Positions 334-63,885 of a stretch of DNA of 63,885 nucleotides are shown piece by piece. The notes beneath the pieces were generated by a model. The model made no database searches, had not been told where the DNA came from, and saw only the letters and a program-made list of their open reading frames with translations. The DNA comes from Gammaproteobacteria bacterium (GTDB taxonomy: Bacteria; Pseudomonadota; Gammaproteobacteria; Pseudomonadales; Azotimanducaceae), in the NCBI GenBank assembly GCA_028821405.1, contig JAPPGK010000007.1, forward strand, positions 1 to 63,885, in the 5' to 3' direction. Position numbers and translations under genes: made by a program. Each line of letters opens with the position of its first letter. Position 1 is the stretch's first letter.

Positions 334-1482
334 CTATGCAGCCACGCGTTGGGGAAAGTCTAGCTGGTCGCTCATGGGACTGGGTCTTTCGCCGAGGATG
401 AATCCGAAAGCATGGTCCACCAGCCACCGAACCGCGGGTACGCACACTGCATCGCCGAAGCCCAATTGCGCTTGCCGTCTTCCGACATTGATCGGGTAGT
501 CCCGGGCACCCTGCAAGCGTGCGTATTCCAGGCCAGTCAAAGGCCTAATCCGCAGTTGGCTTTGCCTGGTATCGACCAAGAACTGCACACTACTCCCGCC
601 CTGAGGGGTTCGGAGACATCCCGCGATGCAGTCATCGCGAAGTTCGCCCACAGTTTTTCCGTTTCGTACCCTCCGGAACATCGTGCCGACGCCTTCGCGG
701 CAGCCTCGCCGCAATTCGTCGACCTTCGATCGATGCCGAGGGTTCATTGCATGGACCGTCTCGGAGACGCGCTCGGGTGACCACCACAAGGACGAGTCGA
801 CGGGTATGTCCTCAAGGATGGAGGCAAGCGTGGTACTGCAACGCAAAGGTGGTTCGGGCAGCGGTAATTCTACGAAGGGCAAGTCGGGATGACGCAGTTG
901 AAAGTCGCGGATTGCTCGCGGACGCAACCTCGTCAGATCGCCGCTAAGGGGCAACGCATGCGGTAGCAGGTCGTGGCGCACCGCCAAGACAAACAACCTC
1001 GGTCGGCTTTGGGGGACAAACCAGCGCGCATCGACGAGCGTGATGTCTTGACTATAGCCAAGCTTCGCGAGTCGCTCACAAACGTTGCCAAGATCCTGTC
1101 CCCGGTGGGAAGTAAGGAACCCAGTGACGTTTTCGAACAACAACGCCTTAGGCGCGGAACCCTGTTGGCAAAGTCCAGCCACCAGCTCGAGGAAAGGCCA
1201 CACGGTTCCGGAGTGCTGACCCGCAAGCCCAGCTCGATTGCCCGCGAGAGAGAGATCGATGCAGGGGAAGGAAGCGGTAGCTAGCCCGATGTCCGCCGGA
1301 AGGTCGTCGACGGCAACTTCCCTGACGTCAGCGACCAGCAGGTGATCGCCGCCAAAACGGGCCCGGTACATCTCGGCCTTCTCGGGCGCGATGTCATTGG
1401 CGAAGGCGCAGTGCCATCCAAGTGGCTCGACTGCCTCGCGTACTAGGCCTATGCCAGCAAAAAACTCCGCGAAGCTAGACAT
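334..1482 (-). CDS. DNA (cytosine-5-)-methyltransferase
   Basis: A 382-residue C5-cytosine DNA methyltransferase, which would transfer a methyl group from S-adenosylmethionine to C5 of cytosine in a specific site. Motif I FAEFFAGIG is at residues 4-12. The catalytic Cys is C74 in FPCIDLSLAG (motif IV, with PCID in place of the common PCQP/PCQS). Motif VI is LLFENVTGFL, motif VIII is QSRPRLFVLAV, and the C-terminal motifs IX/X are LTGLEYARLQG and GFGDAVCVPA. All core motifs are present, so it looks intact. The ATG at 1482 is preferred over an upstream start because it follows GGAGG at good spacing and matches the family N-terminus. The gene immediately downstream may be its cognate nuclease fragment. 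It could now act as an orphan methyltransferase. Confidence 0.9.
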   Translation of the reverse strand: MSSFAEFFAGIGLVREAVEPLGWHCAFANDIAPEKAEMYRARFGGDHLLVADVREVAVDDLPADIGLATASFPCIDLSLAGNRAGLAGQHSGTVWPFLELVAGLCQQGSAPKALLFENVTGFLTSHRGQDLGNVCERLAKLGYSQDITLVDARWFVPQSRPRLFVLAVRHDLLPHALPLSGDLTRLRPRAIRDFQLRHPDLPFVELPLPEPPLRCSTTLASILEDIPVDSSLWWSPERVSETVHAMNPRHRSKVDELRRGCREGVGTMFRRVRNGKTVGELRDDCIAGCLRTPQGGSSVQFLVDTRQSQLRIRPLTGLEYARLQGARDYPINVGRRQAQLGFGDAVCVPAVRWLVDHAFGFILGERPSPMSDQLDFPQRVAA

Positions 1483-1599
1483 TGCGCCTCCGCCACGTCC
1501 TGTTGAGGGCGCCGTTGCGAAGAGCATAGCACCGTTGGGGCCGCGTGGGACGTATGGCGGCCCCGATTGACGCCGTCAGCGTGGTGATCTGCCTTGGTT

Positions 1600-52098: not shown

Positions 52099-52854
52099 AT
52101 GGAACTTCGCGCGAATCGGGTCCGCCGAAAACTCGAAGCCGGCGAACCGGCGTTCGTTGTGGGCGGCGTCACGCACGCGGACGATATCGACGCCCTCGGC
52201 CCGATCGGCTTCGACGGCATCTGGCTCGAAGGCGAGCACGGCGGCGTCGATGCCGCCGATCTCGGCAACCTCACCCGGGCCTGCGACATCTGGGGAATGA
52301 CCTCCCTGGTCCGCGTCAACCGCAACGACCAGGGCCTCATCTACCGAACCCTGGACCGGGGCGCCCAGGCCATCGTGGTGCCCCACGTCGACACCCGCAC
52401 GGATGCCGAGAACGTCGTTGCCGGCGGCAAGTTCCCGCCGCTCGGCAAGCGCGGTCTGTTCATCAGCCGTCAAGGCTACGGCGTCGGCGACTACCTCGCC
52501 CGGGCCAACGACGAAACGCTGCTGATCGCGCTCATCGAGGACATCGAGGCGTGGCGGAATCTCGACGAGATCCTCGAAGTCGACGGCATCGGCGTGTTCT
52601 TCGTCGCGCCGTCGGATTTCGCGGCGTCGTTGGGCCACATCGGCAATGTCGGCCACCCCGACGTGCAGGAGAAGATCGAGGACTCGCTGCGCCGCATCGT
52701 TGCCGCCGGACGGACCGCCGGTACCCTGTGCATGAACGACAACGTCCAGCGCTTCGCCGAGATCGGCGTCAGGTGTTTCTTCACGTCGACGGGGCCTTGG
52801 GTGGCCGCCGGTGCCAGGGATTTCAAGGCGAATGCGTTGAAGGGGGTCCGTTAG
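52099..52854 (+). CDS. HpcH/HpaI-family aldolase
   Basis: 251 residues. TIM-barrel motifs FDGIWLEGEHGGVDAADLG, GAQAIVVPHVDTRTDAENVV, and VDGIGVFFVAPSDFAASLGH match class II pyruvate aldolases (2-keto-3-deoxy acid aldolase type). Ribosome site GAGGAG. Third gene of the unit with the carboxyltransferase and DUF2332. Confidence 0.9.
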   Translation: MELRANRVRRKLEAGEPAFVVGGVTHADDIDALGPIGFDGIWLEGEHGGVDAADLGNLTRACDIWGMTSLVRVNRNDQGLIYRTLDRGAQAIVVPHVDTRTDAENVVAGGKFPPLGKRGLFISRQGYGVGDYLARANDETLLIALIEDIEAWRNLDEILEVDGIGVFFVAPSDFAASLGHIGNVGHPDVQEKIEDSLRRIVAAGRTAGTLCMNDNVQRFAEIGVRCFFTSTGPWVAAGARDFKANALKGVR

Positions 52855-53013: not shown

Positions 53014-53058
53014 GAAGCCTCCTGCGAGTCAGCGTACTACATTCACAAAGAAGCCGTA

Positions 53059-53088
53059 GGGGCGACCCTTAATGGAATGGTCCGCCCC
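53059..53088. repeat. REP-like palindrome
   Basis: GGGGCGACC and GGTCCGCCCC form an imperfect stem (one bulged base) around a 12-nt loop. It belongs with the GGGGCGACCCT-type copies at 31831 and about 31897. Confidence 0.45.
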
Positions 53089-53093
53089 GCTTC

Positions 53094-53445
53094 ATTCGGG
53101 CGGCCTCGAAGGCCAGAAGCACAAACGGTTCCGGGAGGTGTCCCGCCGGCTGGTGGAGGCGAGCGAGGAACTGTGCCGGGCGGGCTGAAGACCGGCCGTG
53201 ACCTGGGGCGAAACCCCCAAAAAGGGGGCTCTGCGGTTCGCTGACGACCGCGTTCGCGACGGCGCCGCGGAGGGGATCGACTTCGAACGTCTCGAGGCGG
53301 AGGTCCGGCGCCCCGGCTGGCGTGCGCGGGCTGCGGCGGCAGCGCGGCCTACGCCAGGCGGCGCGGACGAGCTTCGCGGAGACCGCCGACCTGCTCCACG
53401 ACCTGGCCGGGGTGGAGCCGCCGCGAAACCCGCCCTGCCCCTAGG
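53094..53445 (+). pseudogene. Decayed transposase fragments (ISKra4-like)
   Basis: Short coding pieces in different frames: GLEGQKHKRFREVSRRLVEA (ends at a stop near 53188), then GIDFERLEAEVRR, a CAGCGG knuckle, and SFAETADLLHDLAGVEPP. The last three occur in this order in ISKra4-family transposases as I know them (IDFExLExxVRR, zinc knuckle, SFxEAxxLLxELAGV). The pieces are separated by frameshifts and deletions. No terminal repeats recognised. Confidence 0.45.
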
Positions 53446-53629
53446 ATCCAACAGATTTGTCGTGCACCCCATCACTACGAGCACCGGCACCTTTCTGCTT
53501 CGCCATGCGATAGGCTATCCCCCGCTCAACGTGTCCAGTCGGCCCACATACCACAAGCCAGTGATCGGAGGCAGCAAACCCGACGGGTCTAAGGCAGCGC
53601 CCCCTACTTCACTTGGCGGTCCCTTCGCG

Positions 53630-54125
53630 GATGAGCAGTTCAGCGTCCTCAAAACAGACGATAGGAGAGAATCACGATCCGCGGTCCCACCCACGACGTG
53701 CCTCGGCTCACCCGGTGCCACTGCCGGAACGGAAGCCGGTATACCTACTCCGGAATCACCACGACAACCGTACCGCCTAGTATCGAGCAGGCTCCAACCG
53801 TCTGTCAGCCCGCCGGCCTGTCGTTCAACTCCGTCCTCGTCAACCTCTACCGGGACGTACGCGAAATAGTCGGATGGCATAGCGACGCCGAGCCGGAGTT
53901 CGGCGGCGTGGTAGACATCGCATCGATCAGCCTAGGCGTCTGGTGGGCCTTCCGGCTCCGCCACCGCCGCGACCACTCGCGTACGGAGTTGTGCGTTGCC
54001 ATAGACGGTACACTCCGGTTGCGGCACGGCCAGTCGGCCACCGGCGACCTTGGAAGCTCATGGTGCTGGGAAGCGTGACGAATCCCCCGCAGACCCACGT
54101 CTCTCACAACTTGGGCCGAACCCAG
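53630..54125 (+). pseudogene. AlkB-like 2OG-Fe(II) dioxygenase, frameshifted
   Basis: One frame reads ITIRGPTHDVPRLTR, SRYTYSGITTTT, FNSVLVNLYRD and the AlkB iron motif GWHSDAEPEFGG followed by DIASISLGVWWAFRL, then loses sense near 54030. The expected C-terminal part (WKLMVLGSVTNPPQTHVS) continues in another frame. A stop (TAG) lies in the 5' part, and the second iron His appears to be Leu. AlkB proteins demethylate alkylated DNA/RNA bases; this copy is dead. It abuts the nurA gene. Confidence 0.65.
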
Positions 54126-55079
54126 ATTGGCGTCGAGCCGTTTGATGTCGGGTACGGGGCTGGTTACGAAGCAGGGGAGGAGTCGCCGAAGGACATGGAG
54201 TGCGAGTTGGTCGAGGATGAGGGGGACTTTCGTGTTCATCGTCCAGCAGCTGAGGATCGGCCAAGACGCTTGGCGTTCGTGGACGGCACCATGCGGACTG
54301 ATGCCCGCTTGACCCGAACGGACGAGAATGGGGTGACAGTCTCCGGGCTGGCCGGAAGCTGGGGGGCCGGAGCCGCATTGAACAAGGACGGCGCTCTCTC
54401 CATCGAACGAGTGCAGGTGGGACGCGCCACGTTCTTCGGCGGAGGCCAGACGGTCCGCCTGCCGGATCGCACGAACGGCTGGTCATGGGACGCGTATTCC
54501 GAAGAGAGCGACGACTTCGAGTCGCTTCGGCGGCGTTTGCAGCGCTGTATGCGGGAAGCGGAAGGCCTTATCGCCGACGAACTCTCGGGGGAGGGTTGGC
54601 TCGCAGTGGTAGACGGACCGCTACACAGCATCCGGAGGAGCCGCGGCGTACCCGTCGTCGGCTACGTCAAGACACATCATCGGCGCATGCTCGCCGATGA
54701 GTTTTGGAGACGCGTCCCCCTGCTTTCGCGGGGCGAGCGATCAGGTTTGTTCGCTATCGGCGATGATGTGTATGGCTGCTATCTTCGCATCGGCGATGCC
54801 GGCCCTTGGGCCGGCCCTTGGGCGGGGATCGTCCGCGTGGAAGTTCCTGCGGGCGCGGGCCGACAGGAGGCCATAGAGGTCGCTGGGAGAGCATCGGCGT
54901 GGTTGCCAGAATACGCCTCGGCACTACACCGAGACGCTCGTGCACCCGTGAATCTCACGCCAATCGCCGGTTTGGAACGCCACCTCCGCCGTCTCCAGGG
55001 AAACCCACGCTTAGCGCTTCGGGCGGTTCGCGAAGCGGTGCTAGAGTTGAACGCTAGCAGCGAGGCGACGCAACAATGA
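54111..55079 (+). CDS. nurA: NurA-like 5'-3' nuclease
   Basis: About 322 residues from TTG 54111 (294 from ATG 54195, which has a weak ribosome site). Motif I RLAFVDGTMRTDARL carries the catalytic Asp of NurA; a second Asp is in WLAVVDGPLHSIRR, and GVPVVGYVKTHHRRM follows, as in NurA. The C-terminal part is ARAPVNLTPIAGLERHLRRL. NurA resects DNA ends together with the HerA translocase. Its stop overlaps the herA start by 4 nt (ATGA), the first of three tight junctions in the nurA-herA-sbcD-sbcC operon. The true start is unsure because the broken alkB gene ends in the same frame. Confidence 0.8.
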   Translation: MGRTQIGVEPFDVGYGAGYEAGEESPKDMECELVEDEGDFRVHRPAAEDRPRRLAFVDGTMRTDARLTRTDENGVTVSGLAGSWGAGAALNKDGALSIERVQVGRATFFGGGQTVRLPDRTNGWSWDAYSEESDDFESLRRRLQRCMREAEGLIADELSGEGWLAVVDGPLHSIRRSRGVPVVGYVKTHHRRMLADEFWRRVPLLSRGERSGLFAIGDDVYGCYLRIGDAGPWAGPWAGIVRVEVPAGAGRQEAIEVAGRASAWLPEYASALHRDARAPVNLTPIAGLERHLRRLQGNPRLALRAVREAVLELNASSEATQQ

Positions 55080-56896
55080 CCCGCACTGCAGAAGTTGTCG
55101 GACTGGTCGACGGCTCGGTCGAGACAGACTCGCGCCGGTTCTATGTCGTGCTTGACGAAAAGGCGGTTGTTCAACTGGACGAGATCGTCGCCGTTACGAC
55201 CGAGCTTCCGAATGGCAGCAAGGCTACGCACTACGGCATCGTGACAGAGTTGCTCTCACGCTTTGAGGGTGCGGAACTGCCGTCTGACACTGCCAGGGTT
55301 GTGCAGGAGATCTTGCCAGGAGAGCCGGTACGACGAGCCGAGATCCGTGTACTGCGAGTGGTCCCGGAGCTATTCATTGCTCCCAGTGCAGGCGCGACTG
55401 TTGAACGAGCCACAGGAGACCATCGGGCCGTAGCGCTGTTCGAAGACGAGATGAGGCACGGGATGCTGCCACTGGGGCTCGACCTGGGGGGCGACCCGGT
55501 CTTTGCGGACATGCGTTTCGTTGATGGCCGTGCGGGCGGGCACGTTTCGATCTCGGGCATCTCCGGAGTCGCGACAAAGACATCGTATGCGCTGTTCCTG
55601 CTGTACTTGTTGCTAGAGACGGATGGGGGCATGGACCTCCTCGGGGGGCGTAGCGGTCAAGCGAGTGCTCGCGCGCTCGTGTTCAACACGAAGGGCGAAG
55701 ACCTACTGCACCTAGACCGCGCCAACGCGGAGTTCAGGAAGAAGCCCGACGAAGCCGGCAAGTGGCAGGCTCTAGGAGTAGACGCGCCTGGACCATTTCG
55801 TTCCATTCAACTGTACGCGCCGCGGCAGGACGGAGTGACCAACTTGGTGGCCAACGTACGCACGCGCAACACCGCGGATGTAGCTCCGTACGGCTGGACG
55901 CCCGAGCAGTTCATTCGAGAACAGTTGCTACAGTTCTGTTTCACATCCGCCGATGAACGCGCGACCCAAGTGGGCTTCGTAGAGCAGCAAGTTCGTATAC
56001 AGCTACTGCGGCGGCTGCGGCGTTTGGCCGGAGACGCGACCGGGGCCGTCGTGATCCTAGAGTATCCCCCACCGAACACAGGCTTCAATCCGGATCGCTT
56101 AGCCGAGCGCGATCCGGAGGAGGCCGGGGCAGGTGAAGGGACGGTCGTTCGGGACTTTGGGGACTTCATTGACTTGTTCGAGCGTATCTCCAACGTCGAT
56201 GACGAACATCTCCTGAACGAGTGGTTCGGGCGCACTCAGGGCGGTACCCGACAGGCCTTCCTCAGGCGACTGCTTAGGCTGCGCCGCTACATAGGTCCGC
56301 TCATCGCATGCGACCTCAGCCCGATCTCTACAGAGAGCCAACGACTCCACGTAGTGGACATCTCCAGATTGCACGATGACGCACAACGATTCGTCGTGGG
56401 GGCGCTCCTGGATCGAATCTGGCGGGACAAGCATGGTACGGGACGGACGCCCCTTCGCTTTGTGGTTCTGGACGAGCTTAACAAGTACGCACCCACGAGC
56501 GGCTTCTCGCCTCTCAAGGAGCTACTGACAGACATAGCGGAACGTGGCCGCTCGCTGGGTGTGCTGTTGATCGGCGCCCAGCAAGCCGCCTCAGCTGTTG
56601 CCCAGGCGCTGCCGCGGAACGCGTCCCTAAAGGTGGCGGGCCGGCTCGACGCCAGCGAGTCGGAGGCCTATCGCTTTCTCACGCCCGCGTTGCGAGAGAG
56701 AGCCACCAGGTTCATGCCGGGAACGATGGTCGTTTCGCAGCCTATCGTCCCCGAACCGATACCCATACGTTTCCCCTTCCCACCGTTCGCCACCAATCCG
56801 GACGAGGCGGAGCGGGGGGGCGACGCGAGCGAAGCAAGGACCGAAGAGATCGGGCGACGGATAAGCGCCCTGGCGGGTCCGGAACCAGACCTGTGA
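55076..56896 (+). CDS. herA: HerA-like FtsK/AAA DNA translocase with divergent P-loop
   Basis: 606 residues. N-terminal HAS-barrel part (EVVGLVDGSVETDSRRFYVV), P-loop region VSISGISGVATKTSYALFLL near residue 163, Walker B LRFVVLDELNKYAP near 463, and a sensor-like GVLLIGAQQAASAVAQAL near 500. In the P-loop the residue before the Lys is Thr instead of Gly (VATKTS against the usual GSGKT/S). The arginine-finger region (VAGRLDASESEAYRFL) is present. It would pump DNA to the NurA nuclease. Start and stop overlap its neighbours by 4 nt each. Confidence 0.88.
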   Translation: MTRTAEVVGLVDGSVETDSRRFYVVLDEKAVVQLDEIVAVTTELPNGSKATHYGIVTELLSRFEGAELPSDTARVVQEILPGEPVRRAEIRVLRVVPELFIAPSAGATVERATGDHRAVALFEDEMRHGMLPLGLDLGGDPVFADMRFVDGRAGGHVSISGISGVATKTSYALFLLYLLLETDGGMDLLGGRSGQASARALVFNTKGEDLLHLDRANAEFRKKPDEAGKWQALGVDAPGPFRSIQLYAPRQDGVTNLVANVRTRNTADVAPYGWTPEQFIREQLLQFCFTSADERATQVGFVEQQVRIQLLRRLRRLAGDATGAVVILEYPPPNTGFNPDRLAERDPEEAGAGEGTVVRDFGDFIDLFERISNVDDEHLLNEWFGRTQGGTRQAFLRRLLRLRRYIGPLIACDLSPISTESQRLHVVDISRLHDDAQRFVVGALLDRIWRDKHGTGRTPLRFVVLDELNKYAPTSGFSPLKELLTDIAERGRSLGVLLIGAQQAASAVAQALPRNASLKVAGRLDASESEAYRFLTPALRERATRFMPGTMVVSQPIVPEPIPIRFPFPPFATNPDEAERGGDASEARTEEIGRRISALAGPEPDL

Positions 56897-58134
56897 AACT
56901 GCTGCACACCTCAGACTGGCATCTCGGGGCTAGGCTCGGACGCCATGATCGCGGTACAGATCACGATGTTGCCCTACGAGGTCTGTTTGACCTCGCCGAG
57001 GCGGAGCGGCCAGATCTCATTCTGCATACGGGCGACCTATTCGACGCTTCCCAGCCACCATACCTTGCGCTAGATCGTGGAATCAGAGCGCTGCGCCGCT
57101 TGGCCGCCGTCGCGCCGACCATCGTATTGTGCGGCAATCACGACTCCGCCCCACTCTTCCGGGTCATTGATCGCCTCGCCGCCGATGTAACGCCTCGGCG
57201 GCTTTGGTTCTTGACCTCGCCACAGACTGTTTGTTTTGCAGAGATCAGGAGCGATCCCGTCGCGGTAGCCTGTGTTCCTTTCATTAAACCCAGCGCAATC
57301 AACGACTACGCAAGTGACGATCCTTCGCAGTTCGAGGGCAACTACGCGGACGGCGTGCGCATGGTCAATGACCGTTTGCTCACCGACGCGGAGTCCCAGG
57401 TCGGCAAAAAGGGCATCGTCCTATACGCGGCGCACCTGCACGTCCACGGCGCTAGGCCGGGTAAGTCGGAGCGTCGGGTTACGGTTGGCGAGGACTATGC
57501 GACGCATGTCGAGGGTCTCCAGCGTGCAGTCTATTGCGCCTTTGGGCACATCCACGACTCACAGGCTCTTCCTGGTGGCACAGCCCCAGGGCGCTATGCG
57601 GGATCGCTCATCCCGATCGACTTCGGAGAGGCGGAACAGACCAAACAGGCCACGCTCGTAACAATCGACCGCGACGTCCAAGTTGAGTCCCGGACGCTGC
57701 CATCTGGACGGCCGCTAACGCCGTTTGTAGGCACGTTGGAGGAGTTCGAGGAACGCGCGGCCGCAGGCGGCTTCGACGGCTGCATCCTCAAAGCGCGCGT
57801 CGGCTCGGAGGACCCAATACCGGATCTTGCGGAACGCCTCTTGGAAGCGTCACCCGCCTGCACCGTTTTCGAGATCGTCAATGCGGTCGAGAATCAGCAC
57901 ATCAAACCCGTCCAAAGCAGCGAGGATGGTGGAACAGAGCCGACGCTCGAGCAGTTGTTCGCAGAGTGGCTGTCGACCGCAAGGCACGCGGCACCCTACG
58001 AAACTGTCACGGCGCTGTTTGGCGAAGCCTTAGGCGGCCTAGGGCAAGAAAGCGTGCCAGAGTTCGGGTTGACGGAGCTACTCTCGCGCGCCGACCGCAC
58101 GCTACGGACACTAGAGCAATCGCAGGCTGAGTGA
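56893..58134 (+). CDS. sbcD: SbcD/Mre11-type exonuclease subunit
   Basis: 413 residues, GTG start in a 4-nt overlap (GTGA) with herA. All phosphoesterase motifs are present: LLHTSDWHLG, LILHTGDLFD, LCGNHDS, YAAHLHVHGA and FGHIHDSQA. With SbcC/Rad50 it cuts DNA ends and hairpins. The C-terminal capping part is diverged from E. coli SbcD. Confidence 0.92.
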   Translation: MKLLHTSDWHLGARLGRHDRGTDHDVALRGLFDLAEAERPDLILHTGDLFDASQPPYLALDRGIRALRRLAAVAPTIVLCGNHDSAPLFRVIDRLAADVTPRRLWFLTSPQTVCFAEIRSDPVAVACVPFIKPSAINDYASDDPSQFEGNYADGVRMVNDRLLTDAESQVGKKGIVLYAAHLHVHGARPGKSERRVTVGEDYATHVEGLQRAVYCAFGHIHDSQALPGGTAPGRYAGSLIPIDFGEAEQTKQATLVTIDRDVQVESRTLPSGRPLTPFVGTLEEFEERAAAGGFDGCILKARVGSEDPIPDLAERLLEASPACTVFEIVNAVENQHIKPVQSSEDGGTEPTLEQLFAEWLSTARHAAPYETVTALFGEALGGLGQESVPEFGLTELLSRADRTLRTLEQSQAE

Positions 58135-61100
58135 TGCGACCGATCCGTCTGGTCATTGAAGGCTTGCGGTCGTTCCGGGCACCCGTGACCATTGACTTTG
58201 GTGACCGCGACCACATTGCGATCATTGGTGATACTGGCGCGGGAAAGTCATCCATCCTCGAGGCCATAACGTACGCGCTGTATGGGAAGACGACGTTCGC
58301 TGCACAGGCGAACCAGGAGTTGATGAACGATACGTCGACTAGGCTTCGCGTCGTACTACGGTTCCGGGTGGCGGGCGAGGAGTGGGAGGCGGCACGAACA
58401 CTTCGGCGAGCTGGCGATAACACTGTGGGAGGTGTGACCGCTACGCTCCAGAGGCTCGATGCCGATGGTGAAGCGGTCGAGATCGTGGAGCAGGTGACGC
58501 CCGTCAACGACCGCATTAAGGAACTCATCGGGCTCGACCGAGACGCTTTCCTACGCACGGTGGTGCTGCCCCAAGGTCGTTTCGCCCGTCTACTGGTCGA
58601 GGACAGTCCAGCCGACCGGAGCGTCATCCTTCGCCAAGTGTGGCGAACTGACGAGATGGAAGAAGTGGGACGTCTGGCGCATCAAGCCCGTGAGACGATT
58701 CTCGAGACGCGCGTTCGTCTGGAAGAGAAAGCAAAACTCTACCCCGCTAGTCCAGCAGCTCACTTGGACGAACTCCAAGATAAGTCAAATCAGGCGAATG
58801 CGGCGGCTCAGGCGGCATCTGAGATAGAGGCCAGAGTCAGCGAATCGGCAGATGACCTTGAGCAAGCGAAGGCAAGAGGCCGGCTGGCGCTGCGCGTCAT
58901 TGAGGACCTCACGCGGCCGGCGGTCTCCTTGGAGACTCTCGAACCCATAGCCGCTAAGGCCGAGGAGATAGATCAACAAGAGATACGCCTCACCGCCAAT
59001 CAGGACGCCCTTACCGAGAGCCTATCTCGCGTACCAGCGGATGATGACGGCCCGACGATCGCGGAGGTGGAAACGGCGATCGCGCAGCTAGACAGCCTGT
59101 TGGAGCTTCTTGTGAGCGATGCGGAGACGAAAGCGGCAGAACTGCGGAAGAGTCGCGAGGAGGCTCAGAAGAAGATCGCAGCCGCGGCGAGGCTGGCTCG
59201 AGCTGCCGAGGACGCGCGTGAAAAGGTGAACGAGCACGGTCGTGATCGCGACCGCCTGGTGGACGAAGTAGAGACTGCACAGTGTCGTCGTGAGGCTGTC
59301 GCCGCACGATGGGACACTTGTTCGGCAAGTGGCGAAGCGTTGGATGGGGTGAGCGGCAACCTCACCGACCTACAGGCGCGGGAAGGCGAGCTGGAGACGC
59401 ACTATGAGAACGCCCTTGATGAGTGCAATCTCCTCGAACGCGCGCTAAGCCTAGCAGACGACCACCTGACACTCGCACGGAAGGTAAACTTGGTGGCAGC
59501 GGCCTCCCAGGGGCTGCACCCCGGGGGAGATTGCCCGATCTGTAGTAGACCGCTGGATCCCGATTGGGTTGCCCCGGCGAGTGGCGACCTAGACGAGGCT
59601 ATGGCGGCCTTCGAGAACGCAAAACGGCAAGCCCGAGATGCGCGCACCCAAGCCACCAGACTGGAAGGGCAACGCCAGAGCTTGGGTGCGCACATCAAAG
59701 AAGCGGAAGCCGATGTGCAAAGCGCCGAGAAAAGCCACGAGGCGGCGCTCTCCGAACTGGCCCGAATGGTTGACGTAGAAGTCGAGACGGATCTGCCCGA
59801 ACGACCCGAGTTGTTGGCACCGTTCGACACAGCTGCGGCTGCAGCCGACACTGCGCTGACGGCTCATGACGACAACGGCCAGCAACTCGACCAGGAGCGT
59901 CAGCGGCTTGAGACCGAGGCGCGAGTTGCGGAAGAGTCATCAGGAAACGCAGTGGACGCCGCAACGACGGCCAACCGCAAAGCGGCACAAGCGCTTGTCC
60001 GTGTAGCCGGTGCGGTGCAGGCGGTCCCGGAGACATTCAAACCCGACCTTTCGCTTCCTGAGGACCCGCTCCACTTGGTGTCGGTAGAGGCGGCCGACAT
60101 CGAAGCTCGCCGGACGGCGGCCATTTCGCGACGTACGGTCTTAGCCGACCGCGCGTCGGAGAGACAGCGGCTGCAAGGGGAACTGTCGCCCGTCCAAGCA
60201 GCCTTGGCGGAGCTTAGAGGTCGGCGCCAGCGCGAGGTCGACTCACCGACCGCGGACGTTGTGCGCCAAGTCAACGACTACCGAGACGCATTGCTTCAGG
60301 CCCAGAGCCAACTGGAGTTAAACGAAGAGATGCCCGGAGCCCTGAACACCCAGGCGATAGATGCGGTGGCCGCACGCATCGCGGATCAACTGAACTGGGC
60401 GACAAGGCTGGTGACGAAGGCAAAAGCCATCAGCCGGGACGCAAGAGAAGCGGAGGCAGCGGCGCGCGAGGGCCTAAAGGGCCTTGGCGAACACCTCGGC
60501 GTGGAGATTGACGCGGTGGAGGAGATTACCGCCAGAGCCCGCGAGGCTGCTACTGAGGCTGAACTCAGGCGGCGGCGTGCGAAGGAGGAACTCGACAGCT
60601 TCGACGCAATCAAAGGTGACGTAGAGGAACTACTGGTGTTGGTCCGCGAAGTAGGCTCCAGGGAGCGAGCGTTTACTGACCTCGAGAACGCGCTCAAACC
60701 TGGCGCGTTCATGAAGTGGCTCACCCAGCGACGCTCGCGGAGCCTCCTCCTGTACGCTTCACGAACTCTGGAGCAGATGACGGGCGGTCGCTACGCATTC
60801 GCGGATCCCGATGACGTCGAGGATCGGTGGCGCATCTTTGACAACGAGTCTGGTCAGGTGCGTTCGCCCGATAGCCTGTCGGGGGGCGAGCAATTCATCG
60901 CTTCGTTGGCGCTCGCTATCGGTATGGTCGAGATGATGGCTCGCGGTGGGGGACGTCTGGAATCCTTGTTCCTCGACGAGGGATTCGGTGCGCTCGATCG
61001 CAGCAACCTTGACGCGGCTCTGGAGGCGTTGACGACGGCGGTAACTGGTGGACGTATGCTGGGCGTCATCTCGCATGTCCGCGCGGTTGCCGAGCAGTTC

Positions 61101-61223
61101 GACCAAGTACTCGCCGTGACTCGGGGCGTTTCTGGTAGTGACGTCGAGTGGCTGACAGATCAACAGCGGGACCAGTTGGCCGATTTCGAAACGCCTAGTG
61201 CGCTCTCTGGGATGTTGGAGTAA
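58134..61223 (+). CDS. sbcC: SbcC/Rad50-type ATPase
   Basis: 1029 residues from ATG 58134 (TGATG overlap with sbcD; GTG 58131 is equivalent). Walker A IIGDTGAGKSSILEA near residue 33, a long antiparallel coiled coil with the zinc hook C467-P-I-C (GGDCPICSRPLDPD), ABC signature DSLSGGEQFIASLALAIGM near 916 and Walker B LESLFLDEGFGALD near 945. It tethers and opens DNA ends for SbcD. Size and order are normal for SbcC; the last gene of the operon. Confidence 0.93.
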   Translation: MRPIRLVIEGLRSFRAPVTIDFGDRDHIAIIGDTGAGKSSILEAITYALYGKTTFAAQANQELMNDTSTRLRVVLRFRVAGEEWEAARTLRRAGDNTVGGVTATLQRLDADGEAVEIVEQVTPVNDRIKELIGLDRDAFLRTVVLPQGRFARLLVEDSPADRSVILRQVWRTDEMEEVGRLAHQARETILETRVRLEEKAKLYPASPAAHLDELQDKSNQANAAAQAASEIEARVSESADDLEQAKARGRLALRVIEDLTRPAVSLETLEPIAAKAEEIDQQEIRLTANQDALTESLSRVPADDDGPTIAEVETAIAQLDSLLELLVSDAETKAAELRKSREEAQKKIAAAARLARAAEDAREKVNEHGRDRDRLVDEVETAQCRREAVAARWDTCSASGEALDGVSGNLTDLQAREGELETHYENALDECNLLERALSLADDHLTLARKVNLVAAASQGLHPGGDCPICSRPLDPDWVAPASGDLDEAMAAFENAKRQARDARTQATRLEGQRQSLGAHIKEAEADVQSAEKSHEAALSELARMVDVEVETDLPERPELLAPFDTAAAAADTALTAHDDNGQQLDQERQRLETEARVAEESSGNAVDAATTANRKAAQALVRVAGAVQAVPETFKPDLSLPEDPLHLVSVEAADIEARRTAAISRRTVLADRASERQRLQGELSPVQAALAELRGRRQREVDSPTADVVRQVNDYRDALLQAQSQLELNEEMPGALNTQAIDAVAARIADQLNWATRLVTKAKAISRDAREAEAAAREGLKGLGEHLGVEIDAVEEITARAREAATEAELRRRRAKEELDSFDAIKGDVEELLVLVREVGSRERAFTDLENALKPGAFMKWLTQRRSRSLLLYASRTLEQMTGGRYAFADPDDVEDRWRIFDNESGQVRSPDSLSGGEQFIASLALAIGMVEMMARGGGRLESLFLDEGFGALDRSNLDAALEALTTAVTGGRMLGVISHVRAVAEQFDQVLAVTRGVSGSDVEWLTDQQRDQLADFETPSALSGMLE

Positions 61224-61276
61224 GTGCGCTTGGCTCAGCAAAGCAAAAGCGAGCCGGCACAGATCGCGAGAAATGA

Positions 61277-61640
61277 ATGCACCTTAAGGAACTCAGTCTG
61301 GTCAACTTCCGGTCATTCTCGGACGAAGCCGTGTCGTTCGAGCCCAAGCTCACCGTTCTGGTCGGCGAGAACAATGGTGGTAAGCGCAATATCATCGATG
61401 CCATACGACTGGTTTCGACGCCTCTAACGGGGCGCCGAGACCTCACTGTGGGCTAGGCGACATTCGGTTTGGGAGCGAATCACTTAGTCTGGATCTGTGT
61501 GCGACCTTTGATGCACTGTCTCCGCCGCAGCATGGTCGGCCCGGTCGATGCACTCCGGTTCCAGCGTTGTCTGTTCCTTCAGCACTTCGTTCGACGGTCA
61601 TCGTTCGGACTCAGGCCGATGGGCTCCCCACAGGCCACTA
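61277..61640 (+). pseudogene. OLD-family/AAA ATPase N-terminus, truncated and frameshifted
   Basis: The 59-codon frame MHLKELSLVNFRSFSDEAVS... TVLVGENNGGKRNIIDAIRL is the start of an OLD/RecF-like ATPase (Walker A GENNGGKRN, with Arg where Ser is usual). A stop at 61454-61456 is followed in a different frame by DIRFGSESLSLDLCATFDAL, which matches the next segment of such proteins. Coding sense then fades. It lies 53 bp after sbcC, so a fifth operon gene may have been lost. Confidence 0.6.
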
Positions 61641-62114
61641 CACGGCCACCGACGCCTTGGGCGACTGATGAAGGCGGCTTCGCGCCGCGCCGAAGAGCAG
61701 GGGTCGGAGCCCGTCGGCACGTCAGCGACGCACGCCTCGTCGGTTTGAGGCGGTCCGGATGCGCAGGTGCGCGGTCCGGGCCGCTACCTTCACCCACCGA
61801 TCCGCATCCCGGGCGGTCAACGACAAGCCCACGCCTCTCTGACAGGCCAAGCCAAAGATGTCGCATTCCCCACCCCGGTGGTCCCCTAGGCTTCTCCCGG
61901 TCATCATCCCCTGCGCGAGCGGCCAGCGACAGTCCCGCGGTCGTGGCCGCCGCCGTGGGTTTCACGCGGCCGAACGCCGCCAAGCCGGTCCACCAGCAGG
62001 TCATCCAGTCCGGAGGTAAGCGTCGCTCGGAGCGCTGGGTCGGCGCTCCGGCCGGAAACTAGGGCTGGTAGTATTTGGCCGTCCTTTCTTGTTGGAGTTT
62101 GAGAGCGTCAGTCG
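61641..62114. other. Non-coding spacer, probable decayed DNA
   Basis: About 470 bp between the OLD remnant and the HsdR-N-type gene. Open frames on both strands have no family resemblance, and no clear repeat or promoter was seen. Most likely the rest of the deleted OLD-like gene and later debris. Confidence 0.35.
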
Positions 62115-63188
62115 ATGGACCTGGAAGCTACCCTACGGACAGCAGTAAGGAACCTGAGATCGGATCGTCTCGAGAACGAAGCTCAGGTCAAACAGGCGGT
62201 CATCCTACCTGTCCTGCGCGCATTGGGTTGGGACGATGCGGATCCCGCATCGTTCAAACCAGAGTACGCTGTTGGGCGTGGCTTGGTCGACTACGCCTTG
62301 CTGGACCGGGGCAAACCACGCGTGTTCATCGAGGCTAAACGGACAGGCGCGATTAGCGCGGATGGGGAAGACCAACTCTTTCGGTATGCCGCGCATCAAG
62401 GCGTGCCCCTCCTGGTCCTGACCGATGGAGATGTCTGGGCTCTATACCTCAGCATGGCGGAAGGCCTTCCTAGCGAGCGGCGCTTCTTTGACGTGGAGCT
62501 GCAGCGAGCCAACATTGTGGAGTGTGCCCAGGCATTTGCAGACCTCCTCAAAAGAGACCGCGTTGTTTCTGGTGAGGCAAGAAGAGAGGCGGAGCGACGA
62601 CACGAGCAACTTCGAAATCGCCTTAGAGCGCGAGATGGGATCCTGTCGGCTTGGCACGAGTTGCTGAACGGCCCGGACGAGATGCTACGGGACTTGCTCG
62701 CCGAAAAGGTCGAAACTGACTCTGGCAGCAAACCGGATCCGGAAGACGTTGAGGCGTTCTTGCGGGGTTTGAAATCGTCCTTCGGTTCATCCCCGGTCCC
62801 CCCGAAGCCCCTACCGAAACGCGCCCCCGAGCCCCGACGGACTCAAGCCAGTGGGAGGGTCGTCGGATTTGTACTCGGCACGCAGCGTGTTGAAGCTGGT
62901 AGCGCACGACGCACGTTGACCGAACTCATCCAGAGTCTGGCCAAAGAAACACCAGAGTTCATGGAGCGAATGGCGGACGAAACGGTTGGCAAAAGGCGAC
63001 GATTGCTGGCGCGGCAACGTGATGATCTATATAACACGCCGCATCTAGTAACCCACTCAATCGACCTGGGCAACGGCTGGTGGATGGGCACGAACCTAAG
63101 CCAAGCTAACATTCGAAAGCACATAGAAACGGCCTGTAGAATCGCGGGCATCGAATATGGCTCTCAGTTGACACTCGTCGAGAAATGA
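62115..63188 (+). CDS. Stand-alone HsdR N-terminal-type PD-(D/E)XK nuclease
   Basis: 357 residues. The N-terminal part matches the type I restriction R-subunit N-terminal domain (PF13588): ENEAQVKQAVILPVLRALGW, GRGLVDYALLDRGKPRVFIE then AKRTG, giving D...ExK, and FRYAAHQGVPLLVLTDGDVW. The helicase part of HsdR is missing; instead a coiled coil (SGEARREAERRHEQLRNRLR) and a C-terminal domain of about 120 residues with GFVLGTQRVEAGSARRTLTE follow. Probably a defence nuclease. Lies 0.9 kb after sbcC in the same orientation, after a spacer. Confidence 0.72.
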   Translation: MDLEATLRTAVRNLRSDRLENEAQVKQAVILPVLRALGWDDADPASFKPEYAVGRGLVDYALLDRGKPRVFIEAKRTGAISADGEDQLFRYAAHQGVPLLVLTDGDVWALYLSMAEGLPSERRFFDVELQRANIVECAQAFADLLKRDRVVSGEARREAERRHEQLRNRLRARDGILSAWHELLNGPDEMLRDLLAEKVETDSGSKPDPEDVEAFLRGLKSSFGSSPVPPKPLPKRAPEPRRTQASGRVVGFVLGTQRVEAGSARRTLTELIQSLAKETPEFMERMADETVGKRRRLLARQRDDLYNTPHLVTHSIDLGNGWWMGTNLSQANIRKHIETACRIAGIEYGSQLTLVEK

Positions 63189-63539
63189 AACCCGTACGCC
63201 GACACTCCGGGGGCCCAAGCCTGGCATCTTGTTCTGCGCAGGCGTCTCGTGGCATACCGGCCGGATCGGTCAGCGCGTGCGTCTCAGGATGCCACCCCCG
63301 CCACCCATTCAACGGGCGGACGGCCGCCGATTTGAGGCAGTGGCGCGTGACGGGAATCTGCTAGCGAAAACGGGGGTAAGTGACGATCAGGAAGCCGCCG
63401 CCGTGCGTGTAAGCTCCGCCACATCGACCGCACACCCGACTTCCACCGTGGTCCGATCCTCAATTCCCCTTACGAGGTACCGGGCCGCCACTGAGTGCTT
63501 GACGACGACCGGGAGCACCTAACGGTGTATACCCATGAC
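63189..63539. other. Intergenic, nothing recognised
   Basis: About 350 bp without a convincing gene on either strand. Short open frames show no family similarity or ribosome site, and no clear inverted repeat was found. Confidence 0.4.
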
Positions 63540-63799
63540 CTAGGGCCGCCTCCGGTCCTTAGCGTCCATCTTGTGAAGGTCTTCAACGCACGAACCCACC
63601 TCGGCCGACATCCCGTCATAGCGGACATCCAAAGCGTCCTTGAGTTGAGCGAGGCGTGGAGGATCTGGTGGTAGACCTCTTCCCGACGCTTCCAGCGGCG
63701 TTCCTTGGCGAACCTTCGAAGCACGAACGGGACCACAGCGGCGGCCCGTACGATGGCGACCGTACTTGTGGCCACCGTGGTCGACACGAACGAGATCAA
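63540..63799 (-). pseudogene. Small membrane-anchored hypothetical, frameshifted
   Basis: One frame gives an N-terminal hydrophobic helix and basic stretch (VRAAAVVPFVLRRFAKERRW, KRREEVYHQIL). Just after this the coding sense switches frame to LAQLKDALDVRYDGMSAEVG, SCVEDLHKMDAKD, ending at 63540. Joined, they read as one plausible protein of about 86 residues. No family is recognised; the frameshift is inferred from composition. Confidence 0.4.
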
Positions 63800-63885
63800 T
63801 GGGATCGGTCAAGGGCATCTTGTTGATAATCAGGGCAATCGCATTTGAGATTCACTTGACCTGCTGGGCGGCTCGGACCATGTCG

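Follow-up and report, generated by a model that had tools for sequence, protein, structure and literature searches.

A nurA-herA-sbcD-sbcC operon of bacterial type in a gammaproteobacterium: a probable mobile cassette for DNA-end processing

Two questions are raised by an operon encoding the NurA nuclease, the HerA translocase, and the SbcD and SbcC proteins in a gammaproteobacterium of the family Azotimanducaceae (GenBank assembly GCA_028821405.1, contig JAPPGK010000007.1): whether such a set came from archaea, and whether it serves the repair of host DNA or conflict with invading DNA. The stretch analyzed, hereafter the window, is the whole 63,885-nucleotide contig C1, from an assembly of 4.77 Mb in 122 contigs with 97.6% completeness. 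According to its open reading frame (ORF) list, nurA-herA-sbcD-sbcC occupy positions 54111-61223 as four intact plus-strand genes with successive overlaps of 4, 4, and 1 nt, as the preliminary description of this DNA had stated. The operon is probably an accessory cassette for DNA-end processing, complete in itself and passed among bacteria as one piece, because it encodes four intact proteins in which a bacterial NurA-HerA pair is combined with its own SbcCD, lies in DNA of low G+C content at third codon positions (GC3) past a synteny break, is patchily distributed, has relatives across phyla, and yields gene trees that agree with one another.

The four genes and their bacterial type

The first gene, nurA (54111-55079, plus strand), matches PF09376 with 29 bits (cut-off 21) and the NurA chain of the solved Deinococcus radiodurans complex (PDB 7f6d) with E 3.5e-15. 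Its TTG start is uncertain, and the block common to relatives opens at GVEPF, a few codons 3' of TTG 54111. Residues D58, K187, and R277 are kept and, as placed by eye on the 7f6d alignment, correspond to D53, K201, and R309 of the D. radiodurans protein (PMC9960219). The herA gene (55076-56896, plus strand) has an ATG start, overlaps nurA by 4 nt, and is predicted to encode a bacterial-type DNA translocase; residues 4-584 of its product align with D. radiodurans HerA (7f6d) with E 7.8e-111, while no Pfam family was matched above its cut-off, with a sub-threshold match to MC1 only. The residues of the named motifs are preserved in the proteins of this operon. In HerA, as placed by eye on the 7f6d alignment, they are the P-loop GISGVATKT, identical in its letters to that of D. 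radiodurans, and the Walker B sequence LDELNKY, together with K168/T169, D466/E467, and D209.

The unusual form of the HerA Walker A motif was considered as a sign of decay and rejected, since the nine-residue form GxSGxxxK[ST] is present in 98 of 100 HerA sequences, a tally that counts one genome twice and takes in the distant two-gene type described below, and since the Walker A motif of D. radiodurans HerA has been assigned to K175/T176 (PMC9960219). The eight-residue form GxxGxGK[ST] occurred in none of the 100, and the P-loop of the family exceeds the usual one by a single residue.

The sbcD gene (56893-58134, plus strand; GTG start, 4-nt overlap with herA) encodes an Mre11-type nuclease that scores 112.4 bits against TIGR00619, above the cut-off of 77.65, and keeps the phosphoesterase motifs. 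The sbcC gene (58134-61223, plus strand), for a Rad50-type ATPase, starts either at ATG 58134, with a 1-nt overlap, or at GTG 58131, with a 4-nt overlap. Its product reaches 191.6 bits with TIGR00618, below the cut-off of 478.5, and exceeds the cut-offs of AAA_23 and SbcC_Walker_B; it keeps the Walker A motif, a CPIC hook, the signature, and Walker B. These proteins share their motifs and solved relatives with SbcCD of the Escherichia coli type, from which the present pair differs in being tied to HerA-NurA. That the operon is inert debris in a decaying island is very unlikely: adjacent genes are indeed broken, but all four frames remain open across 7.1 kb, with the diagnostic residues and gene overlaps preserved.

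Additional genes specific to the module were also considered. Inserted ORFs were listed in 13 related loci and seven of the inserted proteins were scanned; no dedicated additional gene was recognized among these seven, five of which were unrelated (an MscS channel, ABC-3, a Mutator transposase, a luciferase-like protein, and a carbonic anhydrase) and two of which had no family match, and the idea was rejected.

The preliminary description called the operon archaeal in style, and this holds for its content: the archaeal nurA/herA/mre11/rad50 cluster unites the same four functions, as given in PMC5448004, with a similar presumed division of labor. It does not hold for descent. HerA matches its bacterial counterpart, the only solved relatives at E < 1 being D. 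radiodurans HerA and, weakly, 8xau, with no archaeal HerA among them, and for SbcD as well as SbcC the top-scoring models are bacterial. Acquisition of an archaeal operon by a bacterium is thus extremely improbable and was rejected on these matches to solved structures and models. The archaeal cluster differs further in that an essential role is reported for it, whereas the set described here is patchy.

The closest characterized system is the NurA-HerA complex of D. radiodurans (PDB 7f6d, 7wrw, 7wrx), a 6:2 HerA-NurA assembly with translocation-driven resection, which for the module here is putative. In contrast to the Deinococcus type, SbcCD is encoded inside the operon here, in a host that also possesses RecB and RecC; in one Deinococcales locus (L112) no sbcDC was present within 10 kb after herA, and in another (L111) the contig stops 0.9 kb after herA. 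The nearest described layout is that of the bacterium Oceanithermus profundus, in which nurA-hepA-sbcD-sbcC places the SbcD and SbcC genes 3' of the HerA gene, an arrangement interpreted there as recruitment in one organism (PMC5448004). Here the genes appear to move jointly through several phyla and occur in two orders. In the titles and abstract beginnings of open-licence literature, no account was found of these four genes as a family that moves among phyla.

A probably acquired stretch and related sets in other bacteria

The position of the operon suggests that it sits in an acquired stretch, as low-GC3 DNA beyond a synteny break. Sister species share the gene order of the left flank (approximately 48.2-53.04 kb), matching it piecewise at 78-92% identity, and the left edge of the acquired stretch can be placed at 53041-53118 (no strand), where synteny stops at about 53040 and a short repeat that recurs in the genus lies at 53054-53118. 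In genome G508, the flank match reaches window position 53024 and the following 8 kb of the contig are without a match; in G547, it reaches 53040 and the contig stops 0.5 kb further; in G535 and G475, it stops at 52848. On the other side, the 2.66 kb 3' of sbcC (61224-63885) were matched among the 15 other genus genomes only by pieces of at most 55 bp, in G562 and G508. The GC3 values of the four module genes are 0.671-0.703, against a mean of 0.804 (sd 0.062) for 31 window ORFs of at least 250 aa within 1-53,000, chosen with a codon-position filter, two of which lie below 0.703.

The distribution is patchy at every level sampled, with HerA matches in three of 398 phylum genomes, two of 390 order genomes, 10 of 200 family genomes, and eight of 16 genus genomes. 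The two phylum matches beyond the window's own genome, as well as the family genome G460, represent a distant two-gene nurA-herA type. All four genes were found in nine of the 200 family genomes if G562, with a contig that stops inside sbcC, is included. Among the eight genus carriers, the window and G457 have nurA first (order A), and six have herA-sbcD-sbcC-nurA (order B), with G562 assigned to order B though its nurA is not visible; two of the eight genomes scored as non-carriers are only 74% and 81% complete. In G491 (L035:9411-11050) and G562 (L036:1684-3377), herA is divided between two frames that overlap, the break falling immediately ahead of the P-loop at a nearly identical place in both; the gene may be decaying, misassembled, or truly split between the HAS-barrel and motor domains.

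When genomes representing one species each were scanned with the HerA alignment, at least 593 pattern matches were obtained, at least 584 of them confirmed, and the best 80 loci were examined, one of which (L051) is G457 itself. All four genes are present in 56 of these 80 loci, 38 in order A and 18 in order B; sbcC is matched in two frames in L048 and L081, and nurA in L053. Seven of the remaining 24 lack sbcDC despite 3-10 kb of sequence 3' of herA (L057, L058, L059, L095, L108, L112, and L121), and the other 17 reach a contig end. According to the taxon names given by submitters, complete sets occur in seven phyla among the loci examined; some of these names look wrong, such as "Dehalococcoides mccartyi" for L088 and "Acidobacteria" for L072 and L084, which fall among Acidimicrobiia. 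For six identifiers of the nearest relatives, no paper giving the sample origin was found.

Mobile replicons carry the set as well. Among plasmid records there were six HerA matches, two of them partial. On a linear plasmid of Streptomyces, order B adjoins the Wadjet genes JetA and JetC. Order A is carried by a conjugative cyanobacterial plasmid, with a Cas6 gene and transposases nearby, and on a Nostoc plasmid the end of the record cuts off a nurA-herA pair. A Nonomuraea match was not counted, because the replicon is 11.85 Mb in size, though it is listed as a plasmid. Phage records gave two partial HerA matches, and viral contigs gave four distant nurA-herA pairs without adjacent sbcDC (L127, L128, L129, and L130). 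In L128, an SbcD-like ORF lies further away on the opposite strand, and on the conjugative cyanobacterial plasmid a NACHT-domain protein is encoded near the module (L045:5282-7354).

In the HerA tree of 95 rows, the window belongs to a clade of eight rows from five phyla with support 100, comprising two Acidobacteriota, two Gemmatimonadota, one Spirochaetota, one Actinomycetota, and two members of the genus, while the order-B copies of the genus fall among Actinomycetota. Therefore, the genus appears to have acquired the set in no fewer than two versions, each from a source of its own. Counted on the clear rows only, gene order requires a single change on this tree, and the NurA and SbcD trees, built from 30 selected loci, recover its main groups and likewise need only one; since the three trees agree, the gene set appears to move as a unit. 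Five of 100 rows had been dropped before the HerA tree was built (L035, L036, L046, L050, and L051), L088 was assigned to order A by hand, and all trees were made by a quick method under a simple model, with long branches flagged.

Several observations weigh against the interpretation of the operon as a mobile accessory cassette. The assembly is fragmented. The order-B copy keeps one site among ordinary genes in five genus genomes: five of the six order-B copies lie at a common site, with flank pieces 73-93% identical to those of G535 (on one side only in G562), and the copy of G557 lies elsewhere. Among 16 usable locus pairs, nine have at least 1.5 kb of flank in common, which is vertical inheritance in those lineages; the pair L029-L048 was unusable owing to its opposite orientation, and the Gemmatimonadota copies also have flanks in common. 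The window and G457 copies, which are sisters in the SbcD tree with support 87, may trace to one acquisition. Finally, published work on the Deinococcus and Thermus homologues concerns repair and reports modest effects (PMC9960219, PMC5448004), and Thermus nurA and hepA are individually dispensable (PMC13140390).

End processing in the host: repair or defence

The operon was also considered as the host's only end-processing system, and this was rejected. Adjacent genes for a RecB-like protein (UvrD and PDDEXK_1) and for RecC (Exonuc_V_gamma and RecC_C) are located on contig C99 of the same genome, and a further UvrD/PDDEXK_1 protein is encoded elsewhere in it; this evidence for RecBC covers RecB and RecC. 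RecC was found in 14 of the 16 genus genomes, namely in all eight module carriers and in six of the eight non-carriers. Another resection system elsewhere in the genome, which the preliminary description had treated as informative, is thus present, and the contrary case that it had envisaged, of a sole resection system inherited vertically across the phylum, does not agree with RecBC in the host and HerA in so few of the sampled phylum genomes. The second, housekeeping sbcCD of which it had also spoken was not found, at least as a further SbcC copy in a search of the host genome with the window SbcC.

Of the 200 family genomes, 11 have an SbcC match, nine of them by the module copy, and G398 and G470 hold other SbcC genes. 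The SbcC_Walker_B model matches in nine of the 16 genus genomes, in seven through the module copy, in G567 through another gene, and weakly in G434. The match of G567 is a 648-aa frame above the cut-off and outside the module, one additional weak match each was seen in G000, G457, and G547, and the truncated sbcC copy of G562 gave none. A clear SbcC in the genus is thus almost confined to the module, G567 being the exception, and, in distinction to the E. coli type, a separate clear SbcC is absent in 15 of 16 genomes.

By analogy with published homologues, SbcCD would recognize and clip DNA ends, including hairpin ends, and the clipped end would then be threaded into the HerA hexamer, which would pump duplex DNA to the NurA dimer for digestion of the 5' strand. 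The transfer of opened or clipped ends from SbcCD to HerA-NurA is a step that we infer in the present analysis. Alongside RecBC, the cassette would supply the host with another route of end degradation that is gated differently.

The choice between a use of this route against phage and plasmid DNA and a use on breaks in host DNA is close to even. Accessory double-strand-break repair, in which the set would provide an extra resection route under stress, spread by transfer and not selected by parasites, comes near to an even prospect. The homologous D. radiodurans complex yields 3' tails in vitro (PMC9960219), a subgroup of the genus, like several other lineages, keeps the set at one conserved site, and metabolic genes are among the neighbors at conserved sites. 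At the same time, RecC is present in every module carrier, half of the genus genomes, two less complete ones among them, are without the module, and plasmid-borne copies exist, all of which argues against this explanation.

A dedicated anti-phage or anti-plasmid system, which would degrade invading linear DNA and whose patchiness would track parasite pressure, is a real possibility without being a probable one. The patchiness and mobility of the module are in line with it, and so are certain neighbors: a type IV restriction enzyme approximately 70 nt from sbcC in L048 (E 9.8e-85), a full-length PLD_Helicase (E 4.5e-236) with a partial IIG-like match (E 2.4e-16) in G457 (L029:124-5003), the Wadjet genes beside the Streptomyces plasmid copy, and an HsdR_N gene and an OLD-like fragment near the window copy. 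Moreover, E. coli SbcCD processes the hairpin ends of phage N15 unless they are protected by TelN (PMC12624138). The vicinity of the G457 module also holds a 208-aa protein without an assigned family.

Against defence, no system model set of PADLOC 2.0.0 covers the module: nothing was found for NurA, and HerA and SbcC gave partial ATPase matches only (mad8, mad3, LmuB, and others). Ordinary genes flank other copies; those at the order-B site of the genus encode a glycosyl hydrolase, an AAA/DUF4143 protein, a TPR protein, and a transporter/acyltransferase, and in the spirochaete locus L053 a sulfatase gene adjoins nurA and five singly scanned flank proteins had no PADLOC match. Defence matches in the flank sets are few, and some also occur in the actinobacterial and background sets. 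In PADLOC scans of the flanks at E 1e-10, with 25 families listed per set, 74 families were matched among 124 ORFs, 49 among the 123 ORFs of actinobacterial and related copies, and 35 among the 72 ORFs of the background; matches in the second set include DpdE, DpdF, ZorD, and PsyrT models, and those in the background are mainly one methyltransferase and DinG. No enrichment of defence genes is claimed, because a handful of proteins, each hit by overlapping models, account for many of these matches. Flank ORFs were chosen by length and codon-position GC, the first set being reduced from 133 to 124 by leaving out L046 and L050, the second by 79 of 202 for size, and the third by 18 of 90 (RecB/RecC-type genes, copies from syntenic flanks, and spurious-looking ORFs). 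The four-gene order noted in the preliminary description recurs in other bacteria, the evidence from defence neighbors is mixed, and a defence role, which that description held to be as likely as repair, is plausible at close to even odds with it.

Known defence systems with HerA (HerA-DUF4297 and others) likewise pair a HerA-class ATPase with a nuclease, but the similarity is weak (NF042943, 11.9 bits, cut-off 800; 8xau, E 0.0075), and the partners here are NurA and SbcCD. The capture of HerA/FtsK domains by defence systems is treated in PMC10853773, the consulted part of which does not mention NurA, Mre11, or SbcC. It can only tentatively be proposed that the set is an uncatalogued mobile anti-invader system, in which SbcCD would sense ends and HerA-NurA would drive their degradation, that would act as a portable functional analogue of RecBCD in at least seven bacterial phyla and two gene orders, and that in this genus would lie atop the host RecBC, perhaps being kept because phages that disable RecBCD spare it. 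If the cassette is an accessory machine, the genus, with its eight carriers and eight genomes without the module, is a natural contrast for asking whether resection machines are exchanged as immunity.

Features around the operon

The broken and restriction-related genes that the preliminary description placed around the operon were largely recovered. Upstream, a plus-strand fragment of an AlkB-like 2OG-Fe(II) oxygenase at 53698-54078 matches PF13532 with 43.5 bits over profile positions 65-154 of 194 only, which fits the "dead alkB" of that account; the transposase debris that it mentioned was not confirmed, 53198-53866 being without any family match. Downstream, a 59-aa N-terminal remnant at 61277-61456 (plus strand) matches PF13175 with 46.3 bits over positions 1-47 of 374; this family, AAA_15, comprises OLD-like ATPases, in line with the OLD-like remnant of that account. 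It is followed by an HsdR_N-domain gene at 62115-63188 (plus strand; PF04313, 41.7 bits; GC3 0.616), in agreement with the HsdR-N nuclease named earlier.

No tRNA gene was found within the window that would link the acquired stretch to tRNA integration. The contig ends in a 55-bp repeat at 63831-63885 (no strand), of which 52-55 bp recur without mismatch on contigs C102, C55, and C40 of the same genome. Copies with 93-95% identity lie near the ends of six G562 contigs, and the repeat is perhaps the terminus of a mobile element that breaks assemblies. At the opposite contig end, a DNA cytosine methyltransferase with a GC3 of 0.655 is encoded at window positions 334-1527 (PADLOC MTase_II, E 2.8e-102).

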